Positions 53,173 through 63,590 of a stretch of 64,000 nucleotides of DNA are shown here, piece by piece. The stretch's first letter is position 1, and every line of letters begins with the position of its first letter. Both the position numbers and the translations under genes were made by a program. The notes below the pieces were generated by a model that was not told where the DNA came from, searched no databases, and saw only the letters and a list, made by a program, of their open reading frames with translations. The stretch lies in NCBI GenBank assembly GCA_018064885.1, contig JAGHUI010000008.1, positions 1 to 64,000 on the forward strand. Direction: 5' to 3'. Source of the stretch: Candidatus Minthosoma equi (lineage in GTDB: Bacteria > Bacteroidota > Bacteroidia > Bacteroidales > Bacteroidaceae).

Positions 53173-54039
53173 TCATTTCCATTTATTGAGGCTGTTTTGT
53201 GATTCTATTGTTTCTTCTAATTCGTCTTGTAACTCATGGAAAAAATCATATCCAGTAATGTTTTCTATTTCATTAATCGACATTGCAGCTTCTTCCATTG
53301 TTTGATGAACATCATCATTGATGTAGAAGAAACCAATGCCCTTTTCTTCTCCTTCTTTCAGCATCACCACAACCTTGAAGAAGGCATCAGGAACTGCTAT
53401 CAAATGATTGACACCAATATTTTTGTTTTTTTCTTTTGTATAAACGGGTCCACATACGATATATATTGAACCATACAGATCAGCCCATCTTCTGCAAGCA
53501 GATTCAAGTCTTTCCCAATACACCTGATTCAATTTAGGCGCTTGTGGACAGACATTGGTCATATAATGGCAGTCGTTCATTGCTGACGAGTTCCATTTCA
53601 TATCGCCAGCAGGACACATGTGACCTCTATCATAACCGCAGTTTGCATATTCTTGCTTTTCTACTTGATAGCGCATTTTAAGCATTGGATCAGGAGTGAA
53701 GTCATAATCTTTTCGTGAGATAAGACCAGTCGTTTCTTCTGATGTTAATTCCCACGCGACCCACGATGGTGTTCCTTTTAATGGATTGTACGATACGACA
53801 AATCCTGTGTGGTGTAGTTTAATATCCTCTTTTGGAGCCCCATTGGCAATGTTCATCAATGATAATGTCGCAGAATAAGAATTTCTACTATGTTCATGAG
53901 AAGTCAAAACCTTCCCATTGCATTGTTGAGAAGGCTTTGATGATACAAATGATATTTTCTTTGGTGTCCTATGTTGTCTGCATGACGTAAGTCCACAAAG
54001 CAGCATACACAAGAAAACCAACTTGTACACGTTTTGCAT
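53173..54039 (-). CDS. Exported DNA/RNA non-specific endonuclease (lipoprotein)
   Basis: A 288-residue NucA/Serratia-type nuclease. Lipoprotein-type signal LLCGLTSC (Cys20). Active-site motif YDRGHMCPAGDMKWN (DRGH, near residue 135), and the divalent-metal region MTNVCPQAPKLNQVYWERLE with the conserved Asn. It degrades both strands of nucleic acid and is predicted to act outside the cytoplasm. Its start codon directly follows the stop of the 54-residue membrane protein gene (TAAATG). It is the last gene of the motor operon and the likely effector (inference). Confidence 0.88.
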   Translation of the reverse strand: MQNVYKLVFLCMLLCGLTSCRQHRTPKKISFVSSKPSQQCNGKVLTSHEHSRNSYSATLSLMNIANGAPKEDIKLHHTGFVVSYNPLKGTPSWVAWELTSEETTGLISRKDYDFTPDPMLKMRYQVEKQEYANCGYDRGHMCPAGDMKWNSSAMNDCHYMTNVCPQAPKLNQVYWERLESACRRWADLYGSIYIVCGPVYTKEKNKNIGVNHLIAVPDAFFKVVVMLKEGEEKGIGFFYINDDVHQTMEEAAMSINEIENITGYDFFHELQDELEETIESQNSLNKWK

Positions 54040-54204
54040 TTAGAAACGAAGTATTGAGTGAGCTAACGATACTACACCACCAATCATGAGTAAAATGCCA
54101 ATGATTTTAATTACTATAGCAATATTTCCCTTTACTCCAATGATTTGCACGACCTTATAAGTCAAGAACCAGCCGATTCCTAATTCTAACAACGCATTTA
54201 CCAT
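54040..54204 (-). CDS. Small membrane protein, 54 residues
   Basis: Reading leftwards from ATG 54204: MVNALLELGIGWFLTYKVVQ, then IIGVKGNIAIVIKIIGILLM and IGGVVSLAHSILRF. Two hydrophobic stretches are separated by a short basic loop. One base separates its start from the stop of the MotB-like gene, and its stop abuts the nuclease start, so it is clearly part of the operon. No family recognised; it may be an accessory subunit of the channel or a regulator of the nuclease. Confidence 0.8.
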   Translation of the reverse strand: MVNALLELGIGWFLTYKVVQIIGVKGNIAIVIKIIGILLMIGGVVSLAHSILRF

Positions 54205-54205
54205 A

Positions 54206-54895
54206 CTAATTTACTGTTGGTAAGTTTTTCCCCAGGTTACCAATCTTAGGAACAATCTGTATCATGATTCGCTGATTCCAAACTTCATCTTGTGGATGCA
54301 AACCATCAGCATTAAAGCGTCCTCTTCCGCGTACACCACTACCAGAAATCTGTACTTCACATTGTGATTCCTCAAACGAAATGCCGTTTCTTCTCCATAG
54401 GTAATAAAGACTTAGGGCTCGTTTATAACTCAATGCATCATTATCATAATAATTATCCTTGGATGCCATGCCTTCAATTACAACAAGATAGGTGATATCC
54501 ATATCTTTGTACTTAGGATCATTCTTCATCCTATTCAAATTATCGATTACGCCCATAAGCGAATTACCTACTTTTACAAGGTTTGTTGTGTCATTCAGTA
54601 CGCTGATATTAAAGTCTCTCGCATTGAATTTCGGAGAGAAAGAGCGTTTTAGCACCCAACGTTTGTTTATAGCATCCTCCTCAAAGTAATCTGTTGGCAA
54701 TTGGTTTACAGCTTCTTGTATTTGCTGTATGCTTCTCAATTGTTCCTCGGAGATTTTACGCAAACGCTCTGCCTCCATAAGGGAGTTGCGAAGTGACACG
54801 ATGGTGAGCACAAACATGACCAGCATTATAAAGAACAAACTGGTCATGAGGTCAGAGTAACTTGGCCAAAAGTGTGAACCTGATTTCTTCTTCAT
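54206..54895 (-). CDS. MotB/ZorB-like stator protein with OmpA-like domain
   Basis: A 229-residue inner-membrane protein. The single N-terminal helix begins PSYSDLMTSLFFIMLVMF; Asp15 lies where MotB, ExbD and ZorB hold the proton-carrying aspartate (Tyr-x-Asp-x-Met). A coiled coil follows (residues about 38-70), then an OmpA-like peptidoglycan-binding domain that includes YYDNDALSYKRALSLYYLW. Its start overlaps the stop of the MotA-like gene by one base. Together they should form a proton-driven motor anchored to the cell wall. Confidence 0.85.
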   Translation of the reverse strand: MKKKSGSHFWPSYSDLMTSLFFIMLVMFVLTIVSLRNSLMEAERLRKISEEQLRSIQQIQEAVNQLPTDYFEEDAINKRWVLKRSFSPKFNARDFNISVLNDTTNLVKVGNSLMGVIDNLNRMKNDPKYKDMDITYLVVIEGMASKDNYYDNDALSYKRALSLYYLWRRNGISFEESQCEVQISGSGVRGRGRFNADGLHPQDEVWNQRIMIQIVPKIGNLGKNLPTVN

Positions 54896-56400
54896 TATAG
54901 ATACTTAGAGATAAGATCGGTTACTACTGGATACATTTCTTTTACCATCATAATAAAGCTATAGAGTGCGATGATGTAGATGGCTATCTTAAGCATCAAT
55001 GGCATCTTTGTACATGGAGGAGTCACGACAACACCTTCTTTCGTAACCACTTTGCTGTTTGCACTTTGATTGATTGCTTTCTCCAAATCAGCAATACCTC
55101 TTTTGATGTCAGAGAGATTCGACAATTCACGTGTGTATTTCTGCATTTCATTTGGTAAAGTCTTTGTAATCTGTTCAAGTGAGGCAAACACATCAGAAAG
55201 TTTCCTGTTACGTTTATCGATAGCGTCTGACATTTCGCCAAGTTTCTTGTTCAGCAACTCTTCTTGCTGCGAGAGTGCATTGTCAAGTTTTGAATTCTCG
55301 TTAACAATTTTTTCTGCAACCTCATCCGATTTAGCCTTAGCTGTTTGTCCCAGATGTTCAAATGATTGTTTCAATTTTTCGTCAACATTACCTACTGCCT
55401 CTGAGATTGCAGCCTTTCTTCTTTCAATCTCGTTGATTTCTTTCTCGAAGAACTTAGCCATCTTCTCCCAAGTCTTTGCTCGTTCATCCATTTTGTCTAA
55501 TTTTGAAGTGAGCTCCTGAACTTGTTGCAAATATTTTCTTGAAGCATGCAATGCATCACCAATCATTCCGATTTCATCTGTGCAATCTTTGAGTTTTTCG
55601 TACACACTAATATTTGCTGCAGCTACATGAGTAATATCAACTCTTTCAATGGCTTCAAGCAGTTTTGCCTGCCCCATGTAGGAATCATTTACTTTGGCAA
55701 GCGTCTTGTCAAGTTTCATGGTATTGATGGAGAAAGTCGTGTTGAAATCACGAAGATTGTTTGTCATCTTTACCAATGTGGTTGTCATGTCTGTTGACAA
55801 ATTTGGCAACATTTCTGACTGAATCCAGCTAAGAAAAGCATTCTCACGAAGTTCTACAACACGTTTTGCCTCTTTGAACAAATAAGAACTACGCATGGTC
55901 AAGCCAAGTCCCAAAGCACTGGTCAATACAGCAATGGCCACACCACCTAATAATTCTGTCACACCACTGCTTGCAAGAGCAGAGATAGAGCCAGACATTA
56001 GGTTTTCAAGACCATTTCCGAATACTAATACTACGACACCAAAGAATATGCCTATCATGGTGCCAACAAGACCAATATATTGAGTAAATGGAATAAGTGT
56101 TTCAATCTCCGATTCAGCAACTTCTCTGTTACGGTCAACAACATCCTTCATCAAATGGTAGTCACTTACTTGATCAGAATTTTCTCCCAAATATCTGTTG
56201 AGGGTACGAACAATATTCTTGAACAAGTCGGAATTGTGTGTTGAATTGATACATAACTTCAGACTGTCAAACTCCAGTTGATCAGTACTGTTTGGGAAAA
56301 GATTCTTATAAAGGATCGTAAGTTTTCTGACTTTGATAAACTGTTGTAACTCCCATGCAGCGAATATAAGAACAAATATAATTGATACAATATAATCCAT
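54895..56400 (-). CDS. MotA/ZorA-like proton channel with long coiled-coil tail
   Basis: A 501-residue member of the MotA/TolQ/ExbB family. Helix 1 lies at the N-terminus; the paired core helices are YIGLVGTMIGIFFGVVVLVF (about 108-128) and LLGGVAIAVLTSALGLGLTM (about 150-170). Residues about 180-460 are a long, charged coiled coil (for example RAKTWEKMAKFFEKEINEIE), and another membrane helix closes the protein (MLKIAIYIIALYSFIMMVKE). A long helical tail is characteristic of ZorA; a C-terminal membrane helix after it is unusual for MotA or ExbB. Confidence 0.85.
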   Translation of the reverse strand: MDYIVSIIFVLIFAAWELQQFIKVRKLTILYKNLFPNSTDQLEFDSLKLCINSTHNSDLFKNIVRTLNRYLGENSDQVSDYHLMKDVVDRNREVAESEIETLIPFTQYIGLVGTMIGIFFGVVVLVFGNGLENLMSGSISALASSGVTELLGGVAIAVLTSALGLGLTMRSSYLFKEAKRVVELRENAFLSWIQSEMLPNLSTDMTTTLVKMTNNLRDFNTTFSINTMKLDKTLAKVNDSYMGQAKLLEAIERVDITHVAAANISVYEKLKDCTDEIGMIGDALHASRKYLQQVQELTSKLDKMDERAKTWEKMAKFFEKEINEIERRKAAISEAVGNVDEKLKQSFEHLGQTAKAKSDEVAEKIVNENSKLDNALSQQEELLNKKLGEMSDAIDKRNRKLSDVFASLEQITKTLPNEMQKYTRELSNLSDIKRGIADLEKAINQSANSKVVTKEGVVVTPPCTKMPLMLKIAIYIIALYSFIMMVKEMYPVVTDLISKYL

Positions 56401-56401
56401 T

Positions 56402-57025
56402 TTACTTCAATCTGATTTTTGCTTTACTTGTTATTCTCAACTCTGAATCCAATGTGCCCGCAGCTACATTTTCAATTTCTGTTGCACCACGTCGTTTGCC
56501 TTCAATCTCACACACATCATCAAAGATAGCGTTGATGTTTGCAAGTGCTTTGGCAACATTACCGCAGAACTCATACTTACGTACACCATCGTCTTCCCAA
56601 GTTCTGAAGTAGCATTTTTCGGGACTTGGAAGAATGCGCATAAACTTTCCGTCGTTAGCTTCCTGAAGATACTGATACAGAACTTGACTTGTATTTACTT
56701 GGTGTTTATTATCCTGAGAAAGATCAAATTCGATGACATTTGACTTCTGCTCTTGTCTTTCCAACAAATGCTTGTTCTGTTCATACCAATCACTCCATTG
56801 CTTCAATTTTGAATTTGCCTCGTTGAGAGCTCTTGTATAATCGTATAACAATTTATTTTTTTCCACCAATTGTTTTTCCAAACCTTTTTTATCCTGTTTC
56901 AATTCGTCAATTTCATCAGTAGAGTCATCATCCGAAGATAAGCGCCACAAAAGCAAAGCAATAACAAGAACGGTTTCTGCAATGATTATGAACAAACCGT
57001 AATCTTTTATTATGTTTTCAATCAT
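56402..57025 (-). CDS. Membrane-anchored coiled-coil protein, 207 residues
   Basis: Helix at residues 9-28 (YGLFIIIAETVLVIALLLWR), an acidic stretch, then a coiled coil (about 38-95; ELKQDKKGLEKQLVEKNKLL). A small C-terminal domain follows (KFMRILPSPEKCYFRTWEDD, EFCGNVAKALANINAIFDD). No family recognised. It lies one base from the MotA-like gene and 3 bases from the actin-like gene, and may connect the channel to the cytoskeletal proteins. Confidence 0.75.
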   Translation of the reverse strand: MIENIIKDYGLFIIIAETVLVIALLLWRLSSDDDSTDEIDELKQDKKGLEKQLVEKNKLLYDYTRALNEANSKLKQWSDWYEQNKHLLERQEQKSNVIEFDLSQDNKHQVNTSQVLYQYLQEANDGKFMRILPSPEKCYFRTWEDDGVRKYEFCGNVAKALANINAIFDDVCEIEGKRRGATEIENVAAGTLDSELRITSKAKIRLK

Positions 57026-57028
57026 ACA

Positions 57029-60000
57029 CTAATTCTTGCTTGAGTTGTTCTTTTTGTAAATCGCACTAATCAAGGCATTGAGCATACCGCTGAGAGGATA
57101 GAAGAACAGAGTTTCTTCGATAGTGTCACTATCAGATGCTTCCTTCTTCTTGTTTTCAAGACCATTCTTCGTGTAGGTCAGCAGGTCACGCATACACTCT
57201 TCTTGAGCCACATTCAATGAGGCCTCAGCAGAGTCGAAGTTGTTCTTGAAAGAGAAGTCCTTGTTGAGGTCGAATACGAACTGAATGAATGACTTCACCT
57301 CTTCAACCGCTTTATTCAAGTAGGCATCATTGATGTCACCGTATGTTTCGCTTCCGATAAATTCGTCCTTACCATCGTTGACCGACTTATAGACAATCTT
57401 CGTTGAAGCAATGTCCTCATAATCCTGTTTAGTAGGATTAGACAAACCGCCCTTACATGTTACTTCCTTTGGATTGTCAACATTCTGAAGGATCGTCAAA
57501 CCATCAGAAGGATATTTCTGGTCATAAACTTTCTCAAAGATCTTCTTGGTGAACTTTTCGAGAGTCGTATCGCTTGAAGTAAGGATTCGGATTACCTTCG
57601 AGCCATTACCGCTGAATGCAATATGGCGAGGCATCTCTTCGCCCTTTGCCTTCATGATCTTTGCAAGGTGGTAGATAATGGCAGAATAGAACATGACGAA
57701 CACAATCTTATACTTGGTGTCAAGCAGAAGCATCGTGTTGAAGTCAACATTTTCCACCAATCGTTTTGCCTGAATCTCTGTGTTATCTTTCAACGAAAAG
57801 AAGAAGGAAGCAATGTTGCCAGATATCTTACTCTTGGTATGCTGGTCAAAGATGTCCTCCAAGTCGCTCAACGAATTATCTTCAAGTACACTCTTGATGG
57901 TGTTCTCATACTGCACGAGCAGCTTGTTAACGGACGCAGAGCTTCTATTGGTAACGTATGGATCACCAAATATAGAATCGGCAGCAAAGTGGAATGAAGT
58001 GATGTTTCTTACCTCACCATCATTGGCAAGTACAATGTCGGTTGTACCGCCACCAATATCTATGGTAACGATATTGCCAACACTTGCCTCTGAGTTGCGG
58101 TAATGCTCGTATGGAGCGACAGATTCCGTCATAGGAATGACATTACGTCTATCACCACCAAAGTATTTCTCGTAAGCCTTTGTCCAAACATCGCTGAAGC
58201 TGTTGTAGCGATTCTCAACCATACTGATAGGATAGAACCATACAATCTTTGTCTTTGCAAGGTTGCCGTTGTTCAATAGAACTTTGGTTCGGAGCATCAT
58301 GAAAAGTGACTCGATGTAGCTCTTGATTCTCTTGATGTTGTCAGGATCATTTGACCACTTCAAGTCTGTCAGGATGCGGTTGTAGGCATAACCACGCTTC
58401 TTCTCGTATGGGAAAGGTATGTTGGTGTGCCCGAGTGCATAGACAGCTTTGTTCCAGTTGGTGTCAGATGACATACAGAGAGCTGTACGCATTGGGAACT
58501 TATACAAAGAGTCATTGCCAACAGCATCCGGTATCACATCATAGCCAAGGATGTACTTTGACTGATTGTCCACTTTACCCCACAGTTTCAAAATGTTATC
58601 CTTGCTGGTAACATTGAATGGTTCCGATGCTCCATCGTTGATGTTGTACTCGATGTGTGAGTTCGTGGTTCCGAAGTCAATGGCAAAGGTGAACTTGTCT
58701 GAGCCACCCTTCTTCTGCATGATTGGAACCAGCACACCATAATAGCCATCCGATTCTATTCTGATGTAATCAAATGTCTGCTGTTCAAGAACGTAAGCCT
58801 TATAGCTGTAGTAGCGGTCGTCAGAATCATTACGTACAACAGGATCACTTACGCCCAAAGTGTTTGTACCCTTTACGAATGTCAGACGATAATCGTCCTT
58901 GTCTTCAAACTCACTCATGATGTAAGCACGATAGTATGCTTGTTTCTCATCCTCGTATTGAATGTTCGAGAACAAGCCAACAGCAAAACTTCTCTCAATG
59001 AGTGCGCCCTTGTTCTGAGCGGGACGAATCTCACCATGCTCGATATACTGACGTGTGTATTCTATTACCCTGTTGTTCTGGATAGGAATACGCAGTGTGA
59101 CCTTTACGTTGTCATTCAACACCTCCTCTATTTCAATCATGCTCTTGCCGCCAACTTTGCCTTGGAGCTGCTGAGGTGTGAAATACTTGAAGAAGGTGGA
59201 CTTAAGGGGCAACAGATAACTATACGAAGAACCGCTGATGAACTTGCCGAAGAAAGCATCATCATTAGCATTAATATTAGGAACGCGTATAAGAACATCT
59301 TCAAGGAAGTCGCTAACCGTCAGATAAGGATAGGTGTCATTAGCCTTTGGTAAACGTCTTTCATTGAGTGGCTTTTCGTCATAGTATGGCGCTTTGCTCG
59401 TACTCTCCCAATTGTCCGACACATAGAAAATATCAGAGTAGATACTTCCAGGCTCAATAGGCAATACCAATGGTATCTTCTCGTCTGTAGCAATATCCGA
59501 TTTTATCTCGAATCCACTCTTCACGTTAGCATTATCTGGACATTGACGATAGCAAACTCCGTTAATCTCCACTCGGTTTGGATTTACCAACAGCTCAGGA
59601 TATTCGTTGATAGAGTTGGCTGTAAGCGCGTCAATCTTATCTTTCTGGTCAGGTGTCAATCCATGTTTATACACCATGTCCATGTACGTGTTGACTTCTG
59701 GGAACAGGCGCGCAAAGTTTGTGTAAGCAAGACGATAAGCATAATAGAATACTATGAATTTATCATCTCGCTGGTCGAGTGAAGCAAAGTTGCTGTCAAA
59801 TACCTTGTCCTTACCAAAACGGATGTCTTCTGACAGATAGCTGAAATCGTTTGCAGAACTAAAGAACAGAGTTGCGGGTGATGTTGCACCAATAATGTCC
59901 AACTGAGTCTTTCTGTGCTGACCAAAGTAGTGAAGCAGATAAACACTTCTCATACGGTCAAAGTTGTAGCTCTGTGCATCTTGTCTAAGGAACATGTCAA

Positions 60001-60382
60001 GCGTTTCGCCTACACGCTTTTGATCCTTAGATGTGCTATTACACAGGTTGTTCAGTTCTTGCTGAACATCCCATACCAATACTCTGACCCTATCCTGCAA
60101 CTTGGGGAGGTTGAAGAATATCTGTGCAATATCCAACGAATCAGATACCATCTTGTGGAAGATAGTATCGCCATGAAGATTGCCTGACTTCACTACTTCC
60201 TTGTAAGCATTCTTAACGAGGTCAATGCGTGCAAATGGAGAAGGAATGGATGTGATTTCCTTCTTTACATCGGCTGCATTAGGGTCCTCTATCTGACCAA
60301 TAGCATGATCTCCGTATGGTACTGACTGCCCCCAATCCTGGAGATTGTTATTGCCTTTATATAATCTGAAGACTTTTGCCAT
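57029..60382 (-). CDS. Large protein with actin/Hsp70-type ATPase core
   Basis: An 1117-residue cytoplasmic protein. The C-terminal half carries the three actin-superfamily signatures: phosphate-1 FAIDFGTTNSHIEYN (about residue 565), phosphate-2 IVTIDIGGGTTDIVLANDGE (about 769), and the adenosine motif HIAFSGNGSKVIRIL (about 920). The N-terminal 550 residues match nothing I recognise. Size and layout recall SrfB-type virulence-associated proteins, which also have an Hsp70-like core, but the similarity is only suggestive. Four bases separate it from the tubulin-like gene. Confidence 0.8.
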   Translation of the reverse strand: MAKVFRLYKGNNNLQDWGQSVPYGDHAIGQIEDPNAADVKKEITSIPSPFARIDLVKNAYKEVVKSGNLHGDTIFHKMVSDSLDIAQIFFNLPKLQDRVRVLVWDVQQELNNLCNSTSKDQKRVGETLDMFLRQDAQSYNFDRMRSVYLLHYFGQHRKTQLDIIGATSPATLFFSSANDFSYLSEDIRFGKDKVFDSNFASLDQRDDKFIVFYYAYRLAYTNFARLFPEVNTYMDMVYKHGLTPDQKDKIDALTANSINEYPELLVNPNRVEINGVCYRQCPDNANVKSGFEIKSDIATDEKIPLVLPIEPGSIYSDIFYVSDNWESTSKAPYYDEKPLNERRLPKANDTYPYLTVSDFLEDVLIRVPNINANDDAFFGKFISGSSYSYLLPLKSTFFKYFTPQQLQGKVGGKSMIEIEEVLNDNVKVTLRIPIQNNRVIEYTRQYIEHGEIRPAQNKGALIERSFAVGLFSNIQYEDEKQAYYRAYIMSEFEDKDDYRLTFVKGTNTLGVSDPVVRNDSDDRYYSYKAYVLEQQTFDYIRIESDGYYGVLVPIMQKKGGSDKFTFAIDFGTTNSHIEYNINDGASEPFNVTSKDNILKLWGKVDNQSKYILGYDVIPDAVGNDSLYKFPMRTALCMSSDTNWNKAVYALGHTNIPFPYEKKRGYAYNRILTDLKWSNDPDNIKRIKSYIESLFMMLRTKVLLNNGNLAKTKIVWFYPISMVENRYNSFSDVWTKAYEKYFGGDRRNVIPMTESVAPYEHYRNSEASVGNIVTIDIGGGTTDIVLANDGEVRNITSFHFAADSIFGDPYVTNRSSASVNKLLVQYENTIKSVLEDNSLSDLEDIFDQHTKSKISGNIASFFFSLKDNTEIQAKRLVENVDFNTMLLLDTKYKIVFVMFYSAIIYHLAKIMKAKGEEMPRHIAFSGNGSKVIRILTSSDTTLEKFTKKIFEKVYDQKYPSDGLTILQNVDNPKEVTCKGGLSNPTKQDYEDIASTKIVYKSVNDGKDEFIGSETYGDINDAYLNKAVEEVKSFIQFVFDLNKDFSFKNNFDSAEASLNVAQEECMRDLLTYTKNGLENKKKEASDSDTIEETLFFYPLSGMLNALISAIYKKNNSSKN

Positions 60383-60386
60383 ATCC

Positions 60387-61790
60387 TTACATATTTAATT
60401 TGTCTTGAACGAGAGTTTCGGTTGACTGATAGAACAGTTCCGTGAACTTCTGCTCCTTGGTTTCACTATTGTTGGACACATGTTTCTTGTCTAGAGTAAT
60501 GTCAAACAGTTCATAGTTATCTTTTCTGAAACGAGAGAAGAATGACTTGGTAGGAGTCAAGCCATTAACAATGTCAAAGAGATTGTCATTGTTCCATGTG
60601 AATGGAACAAAGCCAACATCATTGTCTTCCATCTCTTTCAACCATGTTTCATAATCATTCTGTAAATAACGCAGATTGTTTACGAAATCTGACGCAAAGA
60701 AGTTCCTGTCAAGACCATAATCCTGACTCCATTGCTGGCTCAGGAAATTGTCAACAGACATCTTCTTCAGATAATGTGTAAACAGCATCATCTGCGTCAT
60801 TGGCTTTCTGATCTGGCTAATTGTTCCAGGCGCAAAGTCGGAGAAGATAACATTCTCTACTTCGTCTGATGCTAAACCAAACTCCTTATAGACAGGACCA
60901 CCGGCGTTGCTTTGTGCATTTGCAAAGTCGACAACAGCAAGAGCTGACAACATTTCCATGAGGTGGGCTTTATTCTTCTGAGCATCACCTCCTTCATTGT
61001 TATCGTAACCCTTTTGAACTGCTGTGTTGTCACCAATGTAGTACAATGCATTGATATCACGACCAATGTTCTTGTCATAATAGGCCAGTGCTGCCTTGGT
61101 CTTTGAGATGAACGTATCAGATTCAATGCTGCTTTCTTCGTCCTGATTCACTTTGAAGTATGGCAGAACGGTTAACGCTCCGATTTCTGCTTTGTTGATC
61201 AATCCATGGTTAGGAATACTGTCGTTGGTTCTAAGTGTCTTCAATAGAAGAGGGAAACCGCTTGCTCCTGTTCCACCGAAGATGGAACTGATGATGAAAA
61301 TCCTGTCTCCATCTGTAAAGTCATTGGCAAGATTCTTGAACTCTTCGGTGTCGGCAAATTGATTTAATACAACACTACCGATGTTAGGATTGCCCTTGAA
61401 GCCTACAATCATATTCGATTCCAGGTTTTTGTCCGAATAGAGCATCTTGAGCATGGCCTTTGACTCTGTTGTCATGTTGTCCATGTCCATAAACTCTTGG
61501 AACGTCACATTCTGAGAGTTGTTGATAGGCAAACGGAAGTTACATTCCTCAAAGATTTCTGTACCAAAGAACTTGTTCTTGCCGTTATTCGTGAAATTCA
61601 ACGCATCCCTTACTGCTGTGTAGCGTTGCATCAAGCTTACAGTTCTGGTCAGGTCGCCATTATTCAGGTCGGGATCTATGATAACAGGCACGATGGTTGA
61701 CTTACATTCAACACCCGATGCCAACAGCAATGTCAGCGAGCGAAGAACGCGAGCACCAGTACCACCTATACCAAATACAAATGTTTTCAT
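60387..61790 (-). CDS. Tubulin/FtsZ-like GTPase
   Basis: A 467-residue protein with the glycine-rich start MKTFVFGIGGTGARVLRSLT (nucleotide-binding Rossmann turn). The tubulin-type signature IFGGTGASGFPLLLKTLR (GGTGASG, about residue 173) replaces the FtsZ GGGTGTG. The rest is diverged from FtsZ, tubulin and CetZ. No membrane helix. It lies between the genes for a membrane protein and the actin-like protein in the motor operon. Confidence 0.75.
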   Translation of the reverse strand: MKTFVFGIGGTGARVLRSLTLLLASGVECKSTIVPVIIDPDLNNGDLTRTVSLMQRYTAVRDALNFTNNGKNKFFGTEIFEECNFRLPINNSQNVTFQEFMDMDNMTTESKAMLKMLYSDKNLESNMIVGFKGNPNIGSVVLNQFADTEEFKNLANDFTDGDRIFIISSIFGGTGASGFPLLLKTLRTNDSIPNHGLINKAEIGALTVLPYFKVNQDEESSIESDTFISKTKAALAYYDKNIGRDINALYYIGDNTAVQKGYDNNEGGDAQKNKAHLMEMLSALAVVDFANAQSNAGGPVYKEFGLASDEVENVIFSDFAPGTISQIRKPMTQMMLFTHYLKKMSVDNFLSQQWSQDYGLDRNFFASDFVNNLRYLQNDYETWLKEMEDNDVGFVPFTWNNDNLFDIVNGLTPTKSFFSRFRKDNYELFDITLDKKHVSNNSETKEQKFTELFYQSTETLVQDKLNM

Positions 61791-61802
61791 ATCTGTCTCG
61801 TT

Positions 61803-62267
61803 TTAGAAAGGATAATGTTTTACAGCCTTACTTCCCCATTTAAAAGCCAATACAGAAAAGACGAAGAAAAGTATTGCTGTAAAGAGAAAATCTACTACTC
61901 CAAACATTATGATGTTTATCGTGTCTATCACTTGGTTGCCCTGATTGTCATAGAGCAGACAATCACCAATCAGCCCATTGTCAAGATCGCTTGTCAACAT
62001 AAAATATGCGATAGCGAAATTGACAAGACCTGTTGCTATCATAAGTCCCCAGTACTTCAGTTGTTGATGACGTACAGGGTTCCACAAGTAATAATAGATT
62101 GGTGGTATGATGAGTGCCGAGATGATAGCAATCATGCCAAACTGATTGTAGATCAAATCCAGATCATAATCCTGAGTGCTACAATTGTAACCCCAAAGAT
62201 ACTCTGAAAGGGGTTTGCCGTAGAATGATTCGAGAAGGCTGTAAATGTTGCCGAGTATTTCTTCCAT
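61803..62267 (-). CDS. Integral membrane protein, 154 residues
   Basis: Three or four hydrophobic helices (FGMIAIISALIIPPIYYYLW; YWGLMIATGLVNFAIAYFML; IMFGVVDFLFTAILFFVFSV) with a charged C-terminus (WGSKAVKHYPF). No family recognised. One base after the vWA-like lipoprotein gene and 12 before the tubulin-like gene. Confidence 0.8.
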   Translation of the reverse strand: MEEILGNIYSLLESFYGKPLSEYLWGYNCSTQDYDLDLIYNQFGMIAIISALIIPPIYYYLWNPVRHQQLKYWGLMIATGLVNFAIAYFMLTSDLDNGLIGDCLLYDNQGNQVIDTINIIMFGVVDFLFTAILFFVFSVLAFKWGSKAVKHYPF

Positions 62268-62268
62268 G

Positions 62269-63558
62269 TTATTTGTTTATGTTAATCGTCATTCGAGTAT
62301 AATAGTTCTTTCGGATAATGGCTTCTGCAATACCGCCAGTCATGTATTTGATGCCAAAGGTCTTGTCTGCATTTGAATCATCAATGGCGTTTCCGTCTTC
62401 ATCGTTGTAATAGGCAGGCCATGTAGGTGTACCAGTGCAGAGCTGTATTTCAAGATTTGAAAGGTGTACTCTTTCAGCTTCGATGTGAATGATGTGTGAG
62501 TACTTCTGATATTCTTTGATGCGTTCAACTCCAACAACCTTATACTTTGGGTCGTTGAGAACATACATTGAAGTGTCGCATAGATATGAATCGCTTAGAA
62601 TCAATGGTGCGTAATTTACTTCTACAGAGAAACGAACCTTGCCGTTCTTGTCAGCCTTGAGGTTCTCTATAGAGTGCTTAGGATCGCTTCTTTTCAAATC
62701 AAACTTTCCCGAACCTCTCTTTACTGCATAGCATGAATCTGGCATAGTAGTTCCACCTGCAAATGCCATAAACTCATTTTGAACGCCATCCAATTGGTAG
62801 CGATTCTTCAGCATCTCGTTCTGAATACGGTTCAATGCGCCTTGTGTGCCGAACAACCAAACATAGAACGGACGTTGACCTTGATATAATGTGCCTGCAT
62901 CATTCTTGTCATAACAATAGCCGTTGAATGATGACATACAACGATAACCCATTACGGCAAGTTTTGGATGAGCATTGAAATACTGACCTACTGCATTCTT
63001 GATACCAATCTTCTGGTTGTTCAGATAATCGCCAGCATCTTTACCTTTACCTGGGGAGAAAATACAGTCAGAAATAAAGATGGAAACTGTTGAGTCATTC
63101 ATCTCATTCATAATCATACCTATCATCTGGGAAATATCAGATGTGCCTCGGTTTCCACCCTTTGCTTTGAAAGATGTGGGTTCAAGTTTCTCAATGAAGT
63201 CCTGTACATCATCCTGCTGAGGCAGGACGTTGGAATTTATGTAGAAGAGATTAAGTTCTGAGGTAATCTTGGCAAGTTTGAGGTTAACCAGATAATTGTA
63301 AACGATTTGTTCAAACTCCGTCTGACCCTTTACGTAACCGTCCATGCTACCAGAATTCTCAAGATAAACATTCACAGTAGGATTGAAATCTATTGCGTCA
63401 ATGTAGGCAGTTGCCGTATCTTGTTTAGCAACATTATTGTTTGCTCTCTTGGCTCTGTGAGAATCGCAGCTACACATGAATCCTGTATATATTGTAATAC
63501 ATACAAGGATTGCTACGTGAAAAAAAGGAGTTTTTGAAATAAGTTTGTTATAGGTCAT
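62269..63558 (-). CDS. vWA-like lipoprotein
   Basis: A 429-residue exported protein. I start at ATG 63558 (MTYNKLISKTPFFHVAILVC). The hydrophobic segment ends GFMCSC, a likely lipoprotein cleavage region. The open frame upstream runs through an inverted-repeat region and is not protein-like. A von Willebrand A fold is suggested by VNVYLENSGSMDGYV (DxSxS position with Glu for the first Asp), GGNRGTSDISQMIG and VSIFISDCIF. First gene of the operon; it may sense an envelope ligand or hold the complex to the outer membrane (inference). Confidence 0.78.
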   Translation of the reverse strand: MTYNKLISKTPFFHVAILVCITIYTGFMCSCDSHRAKRANNNVAKQDTATAYIDAIDFNPTVNVYLENSGSMDGYVKGQTEFEQIVYNYLVNLKLAKITSELNLFYINSNVLPQQDDVQDFIEKLEPTSFKAKGGNRGTSDISQMIGMIMNEMNDSTVSIFISDCIFSPGKGKDAGDYLNNQKIGIKNAVGQYFNAHPKLAVMGYRCMSSFNGYCYDKNDAGTLYQGQRPFYVWLFGTQGALNRIQNEMLKNRYQLDGVQNEFMAFAGGTTMPDSCYAVKRGSGKFDLKRSDPKHSIENLKADKNGKVRFSVEVNYAPLILSDSYLCDTSMYVLNDPKYKVVGVERIKEYQKYSHIIHIEAERVHLSNLEIQLCTGTPTWPAYYNDEDGNAIDDSNADKTFGIKYMTGGIAEAIIRKNYYTRMTININK

Positions 63559-63590
63559 ACTTTGTTCTATCTGACAACCCAAACAGAATA

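Follow-up and report, generated by a model that had tools for sequence, protein, structure and literature searches.

The 64,000-nucleotide stretch from Candidatus Minthosoma equi analysed here (contig JAGHUI010000008.1; the window) carries nine consecutive genes on its minus strand, at positions 53173 to 63558, which combine a MotA/MotB-type motor pair, a tubulin-like GTPase, a predicted actin-like ATPase and a nuclease predicted to be exported. The genes are spaced by 0 to 12 bases, with a single one-base overlap, confirming the tight same-strand array described in an earlier reading of the window made without database searches (the sequence-only reading). In related loci, seven of these genes form a core of conserved order, and the enzyme encoded behind the core is exchanged. 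From this combination we judge the chances to be evenly balanced that the operon encodes a defence machine of the cell envelope, whose motor would detect a breach and set a periplasmic enzyme loose on incoming DNA or protein. Tubulin-like and actin-like NTPases together with a proton-motor pair in one accessory operon are not known to have a precedent in defence biology.

A conserved core and an exchanged enzyme

A scan of species-level genomes yielded 474 confirmed places with a relative of the tubulin-like gene, and the locus counts below rest on the best 80 of these. The actin-like gene was present in all 67 loci that extend for more than 7.5 kb past the tubulin gene. In the same 67 loci, we found the family of the 207-amino-acid (aa) membrane protein in 64, the MotA-like family in 63 and the MotB-like family in 56, and all four genes lay within 9 kb of the tubulin gene in 54. 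On the other side, the vWA-like and small membrane protein genes were found in 65 of the 67 loci having at least 2.6 kb before the tubulin gene. The core runs in the order vWA-like lipoprotein, small membrane protein, tubulin-like, actin-like, hypervariable membrane protein, MotA-like and ZorB-like. The sequence-only reading had made its proposal depend on this order being kept in other genomes, and wherever all seven core families were found, which was the case in 56 loci, the order was identical (56/56).

In 11 of the 67 loci no motB lay within 9 kb; one of these (L085) has it farther along. Neither motor gene was found in four, one of which (L036) appears truncated. A wider core of vWA-like, membrane protein, tubulin, actin-like and membrane protein genes exists without a recognised motor, including in several Bacteroidota. 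On the cyanobacterial plasmid AP017960.1 (L131), matches to the vWA-like (E = 1e-8), tubulin (5.6e-53), actin-like (1.9e-30) and 207-aa (9e-10) families follow the core order, a 169-aa gene unmatched by the profile of the small membrane protein family occupies the position of that protein, and the core profiles detected no motor gene at E ≤ 0.01. The core genes of this plasmid are annotated merely as unknown or hypothetical proteins. Four other loci (L117, L126, L057 and L060) have the core and no recognised motor pair, yet a product that was read by eye as retropepsin-type, SNase-type or L,D-transpeptidase-like. Three more (L008, L047 and L066) have a MotA-like gene and no recognised MotB-like gene, followed by zinc-ribbon/coil proteins and a membrane protein family of about 490 aa. 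Most of the 80 loci come from Bacteroidota; the records of L025, L027, L033 and L045 are named as Bacillota (Oscillibacter, Acetatifactor, Pseudobutyrivibrio and Bacillota bacterium). For these, mis-binned contigs are as likely as transfer, since the L025 tubulin is nearly identical to that of L031.

The products encoded behind motB, which we refer to as payloads, were counted in the 52 loci with a MotB-like protein of more than 120 aa and at least 1.5 kb beyond motB, leaving out open reading frames (ORFs) shorter than 140 aa, such as a 92-aa SNase and a 115-aa NucA fragment. The proteases were trypsin-type (32 loci) and retropepsin-type (10), the nucleases NucA-type (13), EEP-type (4) and SNase-type (3), and the remaining payloads transglutaminase-like (2), S9-like hydrolase (2) and GH25 lysozyme (1). 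A recognised protease and/or nuclease was present in 46 of the 52 loci (protease in 41, nuclease in 18, both in 13); by established classification, the three nuclease and two protease folds are mutually unrelated. The expected motifs were largely intact: the serine motif in 33/33 and the histidine motif in 32/33 trypsin-type ORFs, DTGA in 11/11 retropepsin-type ORFs, the histidine motif in 13/14 NucA-type ORFs, and the SNase and EEP motifs in 3/3 and 4/4 ORFs, respectively. By a crude rule, a lipobox was present in 29/33 trypsin-type, 11/14 NucA-type, 9/11 retropepsin-type, 3/3 SNase-type, 1/4 EEP-type and 0/1 GH25 ORFs. Retropepsin-type lipoproteins fill the trypsin slot (L022, L059, L064, L067, L079, L081, L083 and others), and both protease types occurred together in one of the 52 loci.

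The clearest case of a payload swap is the pair L059 and L071, whose tubulin, actin-like and MotB-like proteins are 88%, 90% and 88% identical. Their DNA homology ends with motB, and beyond this point L059 encodes a retropepsin and a NucA and L071 a trypsin. On a tubulin tree of 53 rows, made by a short search with Shimodaira–Hasegawa-like approximate likelihood ratio (SH-aLRT) support only, the 13 payload states require at least 23 changes, nine for the NucA payload alone. The states nevertheless cluster on this tree beyond shuffled labels, for which the mean was 29.1 changes. The effector-like, swappable part of the system, as predicted from these comparisons, is thus the 3′-end enzyme, a nuclease in the window and most often a protease elsewhere. 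In 12 of the 52 loci, the 5 kb that follow motB also encode small DUF6804 membrane proteins, with varied payloads (L019, L038, L040, L043, L046, L054, L059, L068, L070 and others).

In the window, the payload is a DNA/RNA non-specific endonuclease of the NucA type (288 aa; positions 53173 to 54039; PF01223, E = 1.1e-49) with intact DRGH and N.CPQ motifs, predicted to be an exported lipoprotein from the lipobox LTSC, identified by eye. Between it and motB lies the gene for a 54-aa single-pass membrane protein (54040 to 54204), recognised from its reading frame and hydropathy and present also in L006, the nearest relative of the operon.

The hypervariable member of the core is the 207-aa protein (56402 to 57025), predicted from hydropathy to be anchored in the membrane by one N-terminal hydrophobic segment. 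We compared divergence among the 55 loci having seven full-length core genes. In pairs with tubulins 85–99% identical (n = 7), the median identity was 43% for the 207-aa protein, against 75% for the vWA-like, 76% for the MotA-like, 87% for the MotB-like and 90% for the actin-like protein, and the same trend was seen in 43 pairs with tubulins at 70–85%. Because of this fast divergence, the 207-aa protein is a candidate sensor; loose constraint would give the same pattern.

Motor, cytoskeletal proteins and known systems

The MotB-like subunit (229 aa; 54206 to 54895) matched the PADLOC ZorB1 model (E = 1.9e-11), and its best PDB matches were two ZorB structures, 8vvn (profile E = 1.2e-14) and 8qyd. 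D15 was invariant in 30/30 aligned rows, as was the SxxRA motif of the OmpA-type C-terminal domain, with NxR almost so, and the motif around the ion-path aspartate was present in 60 of 61 family members. The subunit has the features expected of a ZorB, namely a single transmembrane segment, the conserved aspartate and a predicted peptidoglycan-binding domain. The MotA-like subunit (501 aa; 54895 to 56400) was recognised by profile match and hydropathy. Its profile of 31 rows, at least one of which (L086) is a wrong frame, matched ExbB/TolQ across the second and third transmembrane segments (E = 6e-6). Against single sequences, the alignments with the ZorA of L115 and with an ExbB covered the membrane helices and scored weakly (E of about 1e-3), and the ZorA of L116 scored better (6e-7), but in the coiled coil. 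Of the 62 family members of 420–620 aa, 59 have a further hydrophobic segment at the C-terminus, behind the long coiled-coil-like region.

For Zorya, three features are described as important for function: the hold of ZorB on peptidoglycan, the tail of ZorA and the flow of ions (PMC11890865). The effector of Zorya II is a nuclease, ZorE. The operon shares with Zorya types I–III a MotA/MotB-type pair, of which the MotB-like subunit is nearest to ZorB, and, with Zorya II, a nuclease as presumptive effector. It differs in the added tubulin, actin-like and vWA-like core, in the predicted export of its payload and in the C-terminal segment of the MotA-like protein. Pfam and PADLOC scans covered eight of the nine products, and PADLOC recognised no ZorC, ZorD, ZorE, ZorF or ZorG among them. 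Since these partner genes (ZorC with ZorD, ZorE, or ZorF with ZorG) are absent from the scan, membership in the known Zorya types was rejected. The ZorA1 model matched two of 247 genomes of the phylum at E ≤ 1e-20.

The sequence-only reading had proposed that the operon keeps the Zorya motor and replaces the Zorya effectors with two cytoskeletal NTPases and an envelope nuclease. The absence of the effectors held among the scanned products. The kinship of the motor is borne out by the MotB-like subunit and less so by the MotA-like one, which matches ZorA weakly. The tubulin/actin pair is not such a replacement: it belongs to the core that is also found without a recognised motor. The nuclease is effector-like in being the 3′-end enzyme; its slot is swappable and in relatives most often holds a protease.

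We also considered the GldLM motor of type IX secretion and gliding. A GldM-type subunit has several periplasmic domains, and the 229-aa MotB-like protein has a single OmpA-type domain, so that this assignment failed; GldM was not named among the 23 PDB sequences listed for the MotB-like protein at E up to 1.

The tubulin-like protein (467 aa; 60387 to 61790) matched PF13809 (E = 5.1e-5), as did many of its close homologues. The best Foldseek matches of its AlphaFold model (predicted local distance difference test (pLDDT) score 77.7) were tubulins, the model includes a helical C-terminal part, and the loop FGGTGASG was present in 76 of 84 family members. The neighbouring 1117-aa protein (57029 to 60382) is a predicted actin-like ATPase. 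In its AlphaFold model (pLDDT 86.9), MreB matches aligned at residues 561–992, preceded by an N-terminal region of about 560 residues with no fold assigned. The tubulin-type and actin-type signatures recognised in the sequence-only reading were therefore supported by profile and structural matches, the actin-like identity remaining a prediction.

The first gene of the operon (62269 to 63558) encodes the vWA-like lipoprotein (429 aa), in which an ENSGSMDGY motif and a lipobox-like stretch were recognised by eye; its start at 63558 is backed by the limit of blastn homology with L006 at 63561. In the family, cysteine C31 is almost invariant, and the gene is a conserved neighbour of the tubulin gene. 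The vWA-like signature noticed earlier recurs as ExSxSM in 70 of 78 relatives, but the MIDAS-like motif is degenerate and the fold unproven, with no match in Pfam or in a PDB profile search and a weak hhalign profile comparison. The small membrane protein that follows (154 aa; 61803 to 62267) has about three hydrophobic segments according to hydropathy and the family alignment.

A partial precedent for this core exists. Makarova and Koonin (2010; PMC2875224) described FtsZl1, a divergent tubulin-family GTPase, beside vWA, membrane-protein and, in some genomes, OmpA-family genes, and predicted a role in membrane remodelling; Bacteroides caccae is among the species in the legend of their FtsZl1 alignment. 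The operon fits this broad kind, with features beyond it. The GTP loop is GGGTG(S/T)G in the 2010 FtsZl1 and GGTGASG here, and the long coiled coil of most FtsZl1 members was not seen in the 467-aa protein. We saw no actin-like partner, MotA/MotB motor or swappable exported nuclease or protease described in the text of the 2010 paper, although its supplementary tables may list such genes unnamed. Relative to the operons as described there, the actin-like partner, the motor and the payload slot are additions. We found no description of the gene set in the open PMC literature searched, in which preprints are absent and subscription papers few; the complete set is likely undescribed, and its core was outlined in part in 2010.

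The DO-GTPase/GAP1 conflict systems (Kaur et al. 2020; PMC7159879) likewise bring together tubulin homologues and vWA proteins in operons of variable components, with HSP70 proteins in other variants. They are defined, however, by a TRAFAC GTPase and GAP1 (PMC7159879), and no P-loop GTPase family was found among the eight Pfam-scanned products (for the MotA-like protein, among the best 25 of 27 weak matches), so that membership was rejected. Judged by its gene content, the operon is a member of neither the Zorya nor the DO-GTPase systems.

Proposed function and alternative explanations

The defence interpretation draws on the gene order (56/56), the proximity of the MotB-like subunit to ZorB, the payload swapping, the intact catalytic motifs of nearly all payloads, the hypervariable 207-aa gene, and the patchy presence, homology limits and empty insertion site described below. 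By analogy with the Zorya functions cited above (PMC11890865), the motor may answer a disturbed envelope. ZorB-like dimers in the inner membrane would grip the peptidoglycan through their OmpA-type domains, as in Zorya, and the ion path would be opened by the disturbance itself, or by a cue read through the fast-evolving 207-aa and vWA-like proteins. As the MotA-like ring turns, its long coil in the cytoplasm might then relay the motion to a scaffold of tubulin/actin NTPases at the inner face of the membrane; this scaffold would set a threshold and cluster the complexes. The signal could return to the periplasm through the vWA-like lipoprotein and the small membrane proteins, and lipoprotein enzymes would be freed or switched on there. 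The NucA-type nuclease of the window would degrade DNA crossing the periplasm. A relay is suggested by the trypsin- or retropepsin-type protease that sometimes precedes the nuclease in relatives. If this is correct, the operon would be a periplasmic counterpart to Zorya, attacking DNA before it reaches the cytoplasm. More tentatively, and with rather low confidence, we suggest a new class of immunity machine, in which an ion-driven rotary motor and a tubulin/actin cytoskeleton fire interchangeable periplasmic enzymes, nucleases and proteases with five or more unrelated folds, at genomes or proteins that cross the envelope, under a hypervariable membrane sensor.

Several observations weigh against a defence function. 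Control of a periplasmic enzyme by a cytoplasmic scaffold lacks an explanation; a related problem was raised for the FtsZl1 systems in 2010, when a reviewer queried how a cytoplasmic tubulin works with periplasmic partners (PMC2875224). Core variants without a recognised motor occur, four of the 52 loci carry none of the listed payload families, and the GH25, transglutaminase-like and (by eye) L,D-transpeptidase-like products would suit envelope remodelling equally well. A search of 50,697 phage records gave no homologue. Enrichment near defence genes, a check proposed together with the sequence-only reading, was not shown. We compared 110 of 238 flank proteins with 110 control proteins, taken from the 221 of 19 Bacteroidota stretches that were chosen arbitrarily and in part belong to operon-carrying genomes. 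PADLOC at E ≤ 1e-15 gave 34 families in the flanks and 28 in the controls, of which the 25 listed for each set match one protein each, so that in this small sample there was no clear excess of defence families. Pfam matched four integrase SAM-like and two HSDR_N proteins in the flanks and at most one of each in the controls. To our knowledge, no phage, plasmid or competition phenotype has been described.

The 2010 proposal for the FtsZl1/vWA operons can be extended to an accessory machine in which scaffold and motor reshape the envelope, for example into vesicles or surface structures, and exported enzymes process local material. We regard this explanation as doubtful but serious, mainly because some payloads are wall-active, proteases predominate and no defence-island signal was measured. 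It agrees with the membrane-remodelling role predicted for FtsZl1 with its vWA and OmpA-family neighbours (PMC2875224), and payloads acting on wall or protein (GH25, transglutaminase-like and, by eye, L,D-transpeptidase-like), with proteases the commonest, would fit it. Rare and patchy presence, homology limited to the operon and varied nuclease folds behind one core would, however, be unexpected for a housekeeping function. The payload swapping renders the old FtsZl1/vWA guess testable.

The swapping also resembles that of toxin cassettes, and a ZorAB/ExbBD-type motor beside hydrolytic payloads, with DUF6804 membrane proteins downstream of several payload types, could belong to a contact or secretion weapon, in which the motor would drive the exported enzymes into bacterial neighbours, comparable to GldLM as the power source of type IX secretion. 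Pfam recognised no secretion channel family in the operon, however. Bacteroidota lipoprotein surface-export signals are acidic, unlike the residues following the cysteine in the trypsin-type lipoproteins, which are net positive in 26 of 29 and negative in one. For this reason the payload enzymes are probably periplasmic, and we consider such a weapon unlikely. We think it similarly improbable that the operon is a further Zorya type, acting in a Zorya-like manner through ZorAB and new partner genes. Two ZorB structures are the best structural relatives of the MotB-like subunit, and partner genes already vary among the Zorya types, but the lack of ZorC–G, the weak match of the MotA-like protein to ZorA, its extra C-terminal segment, a payload predicted to be periplasmic rather than cytoplasmic and the occurrence of the core without a recognised motor all argue otherwise. 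Least probable, and in our view very unlikely, is a locus for scavenging nutrients or DNA, whose exported enzymes would serve for digestion with the support of an energised envelope machine. Among scavenging enzymes, exported nucleases and proteases are common, but no uptake receptor or transporter family rose above the Pfam cut-off in the operon, and the NTPase and motor core would be left without a role.

Distribution and genomic setting

The operon is rare among close relatives. A relative of the tubulin was found in four of 45 genomes of the genus, many of them incomplete drafts, including that of the window, the other three being 48, 35 and 30% identical, and in 10 of 392 genomes of the phylum, again including its own, at E ≤ 1e-30. 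The nearest relative, L006, is 84.2% identical in DNA; the alignment, 10,381 positions long, reaches from 53196 to 63561 and ends where the operon ends, and blastn found no match to L006 in the window outside these limits. In the window genome, about 14 kb lie between the nucleosidase and purF genes, comprising the operon, a HigBA-like pair and an outer-membrane protein. We examined eight same-genus genomes without a tubulin match, picked from 27 other genomes with the nucleosidase. In seven of them the distance between the aligned ends of nucleosidase and purF was about 0.1–0.4 kb; the eighth had no purF match. purF served as the border gene in place of the neighbouring outer-membrane protein, because in most genomes of the genus the relatives of the latter and the nucleosidase sit on separate contigs. 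Since the homology to L006 is limited to the operon and the insert is missing in seven of the eight species, the operon appears to move as a unit and to have been acquired horizontally.

No integrase, transposase or clear repeat was seen at the operon borders, on whose genes no family search was run. A target duplication was unconvincing: the two flanks share no more than an 11-base direct match. Among plasmids, relatives were limited to four distant records (25–36% identity), one of them a 1.77 Mb Prevotella replicon. According to record titles, carriers of the family include Bacteroides acidifaciens DSM 15896 (L034), Maribacter ulvicola DSM 15366 and Winogradskyella thalassocola DSM 15363; with such culture-collection strains and 474 confirmed places, the family is common enough for direct experiments.

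The HigBA-like toxin–antitoxin pair, recognised by eye, lies within the 14-kb insert at the upstream end of the operon (L002:689-1346, minus strand; about 64189-64846 in window numbering). An AAA ATPase and TOPRIM-like pair, OLD-type-like by eye, adjoins purF (L002:4786-6635, plus strand); the AAA gene is directly next to purF in four of the eight same-genus regions and about 4–6 kb away in two more. Just upstream of the operon, the strongly foldable segment 63600–63720 is present as a single copy in the genome and has, on the plus strand, a coding remnant with a Walker-A-like GGSGKT, seen by eye. At the other end of the window, a cobalamin riboswitch (RF00174, 82.6 bits) at positions 611–805 of the plus strand is the sole Rfam match of the window at gathering score.

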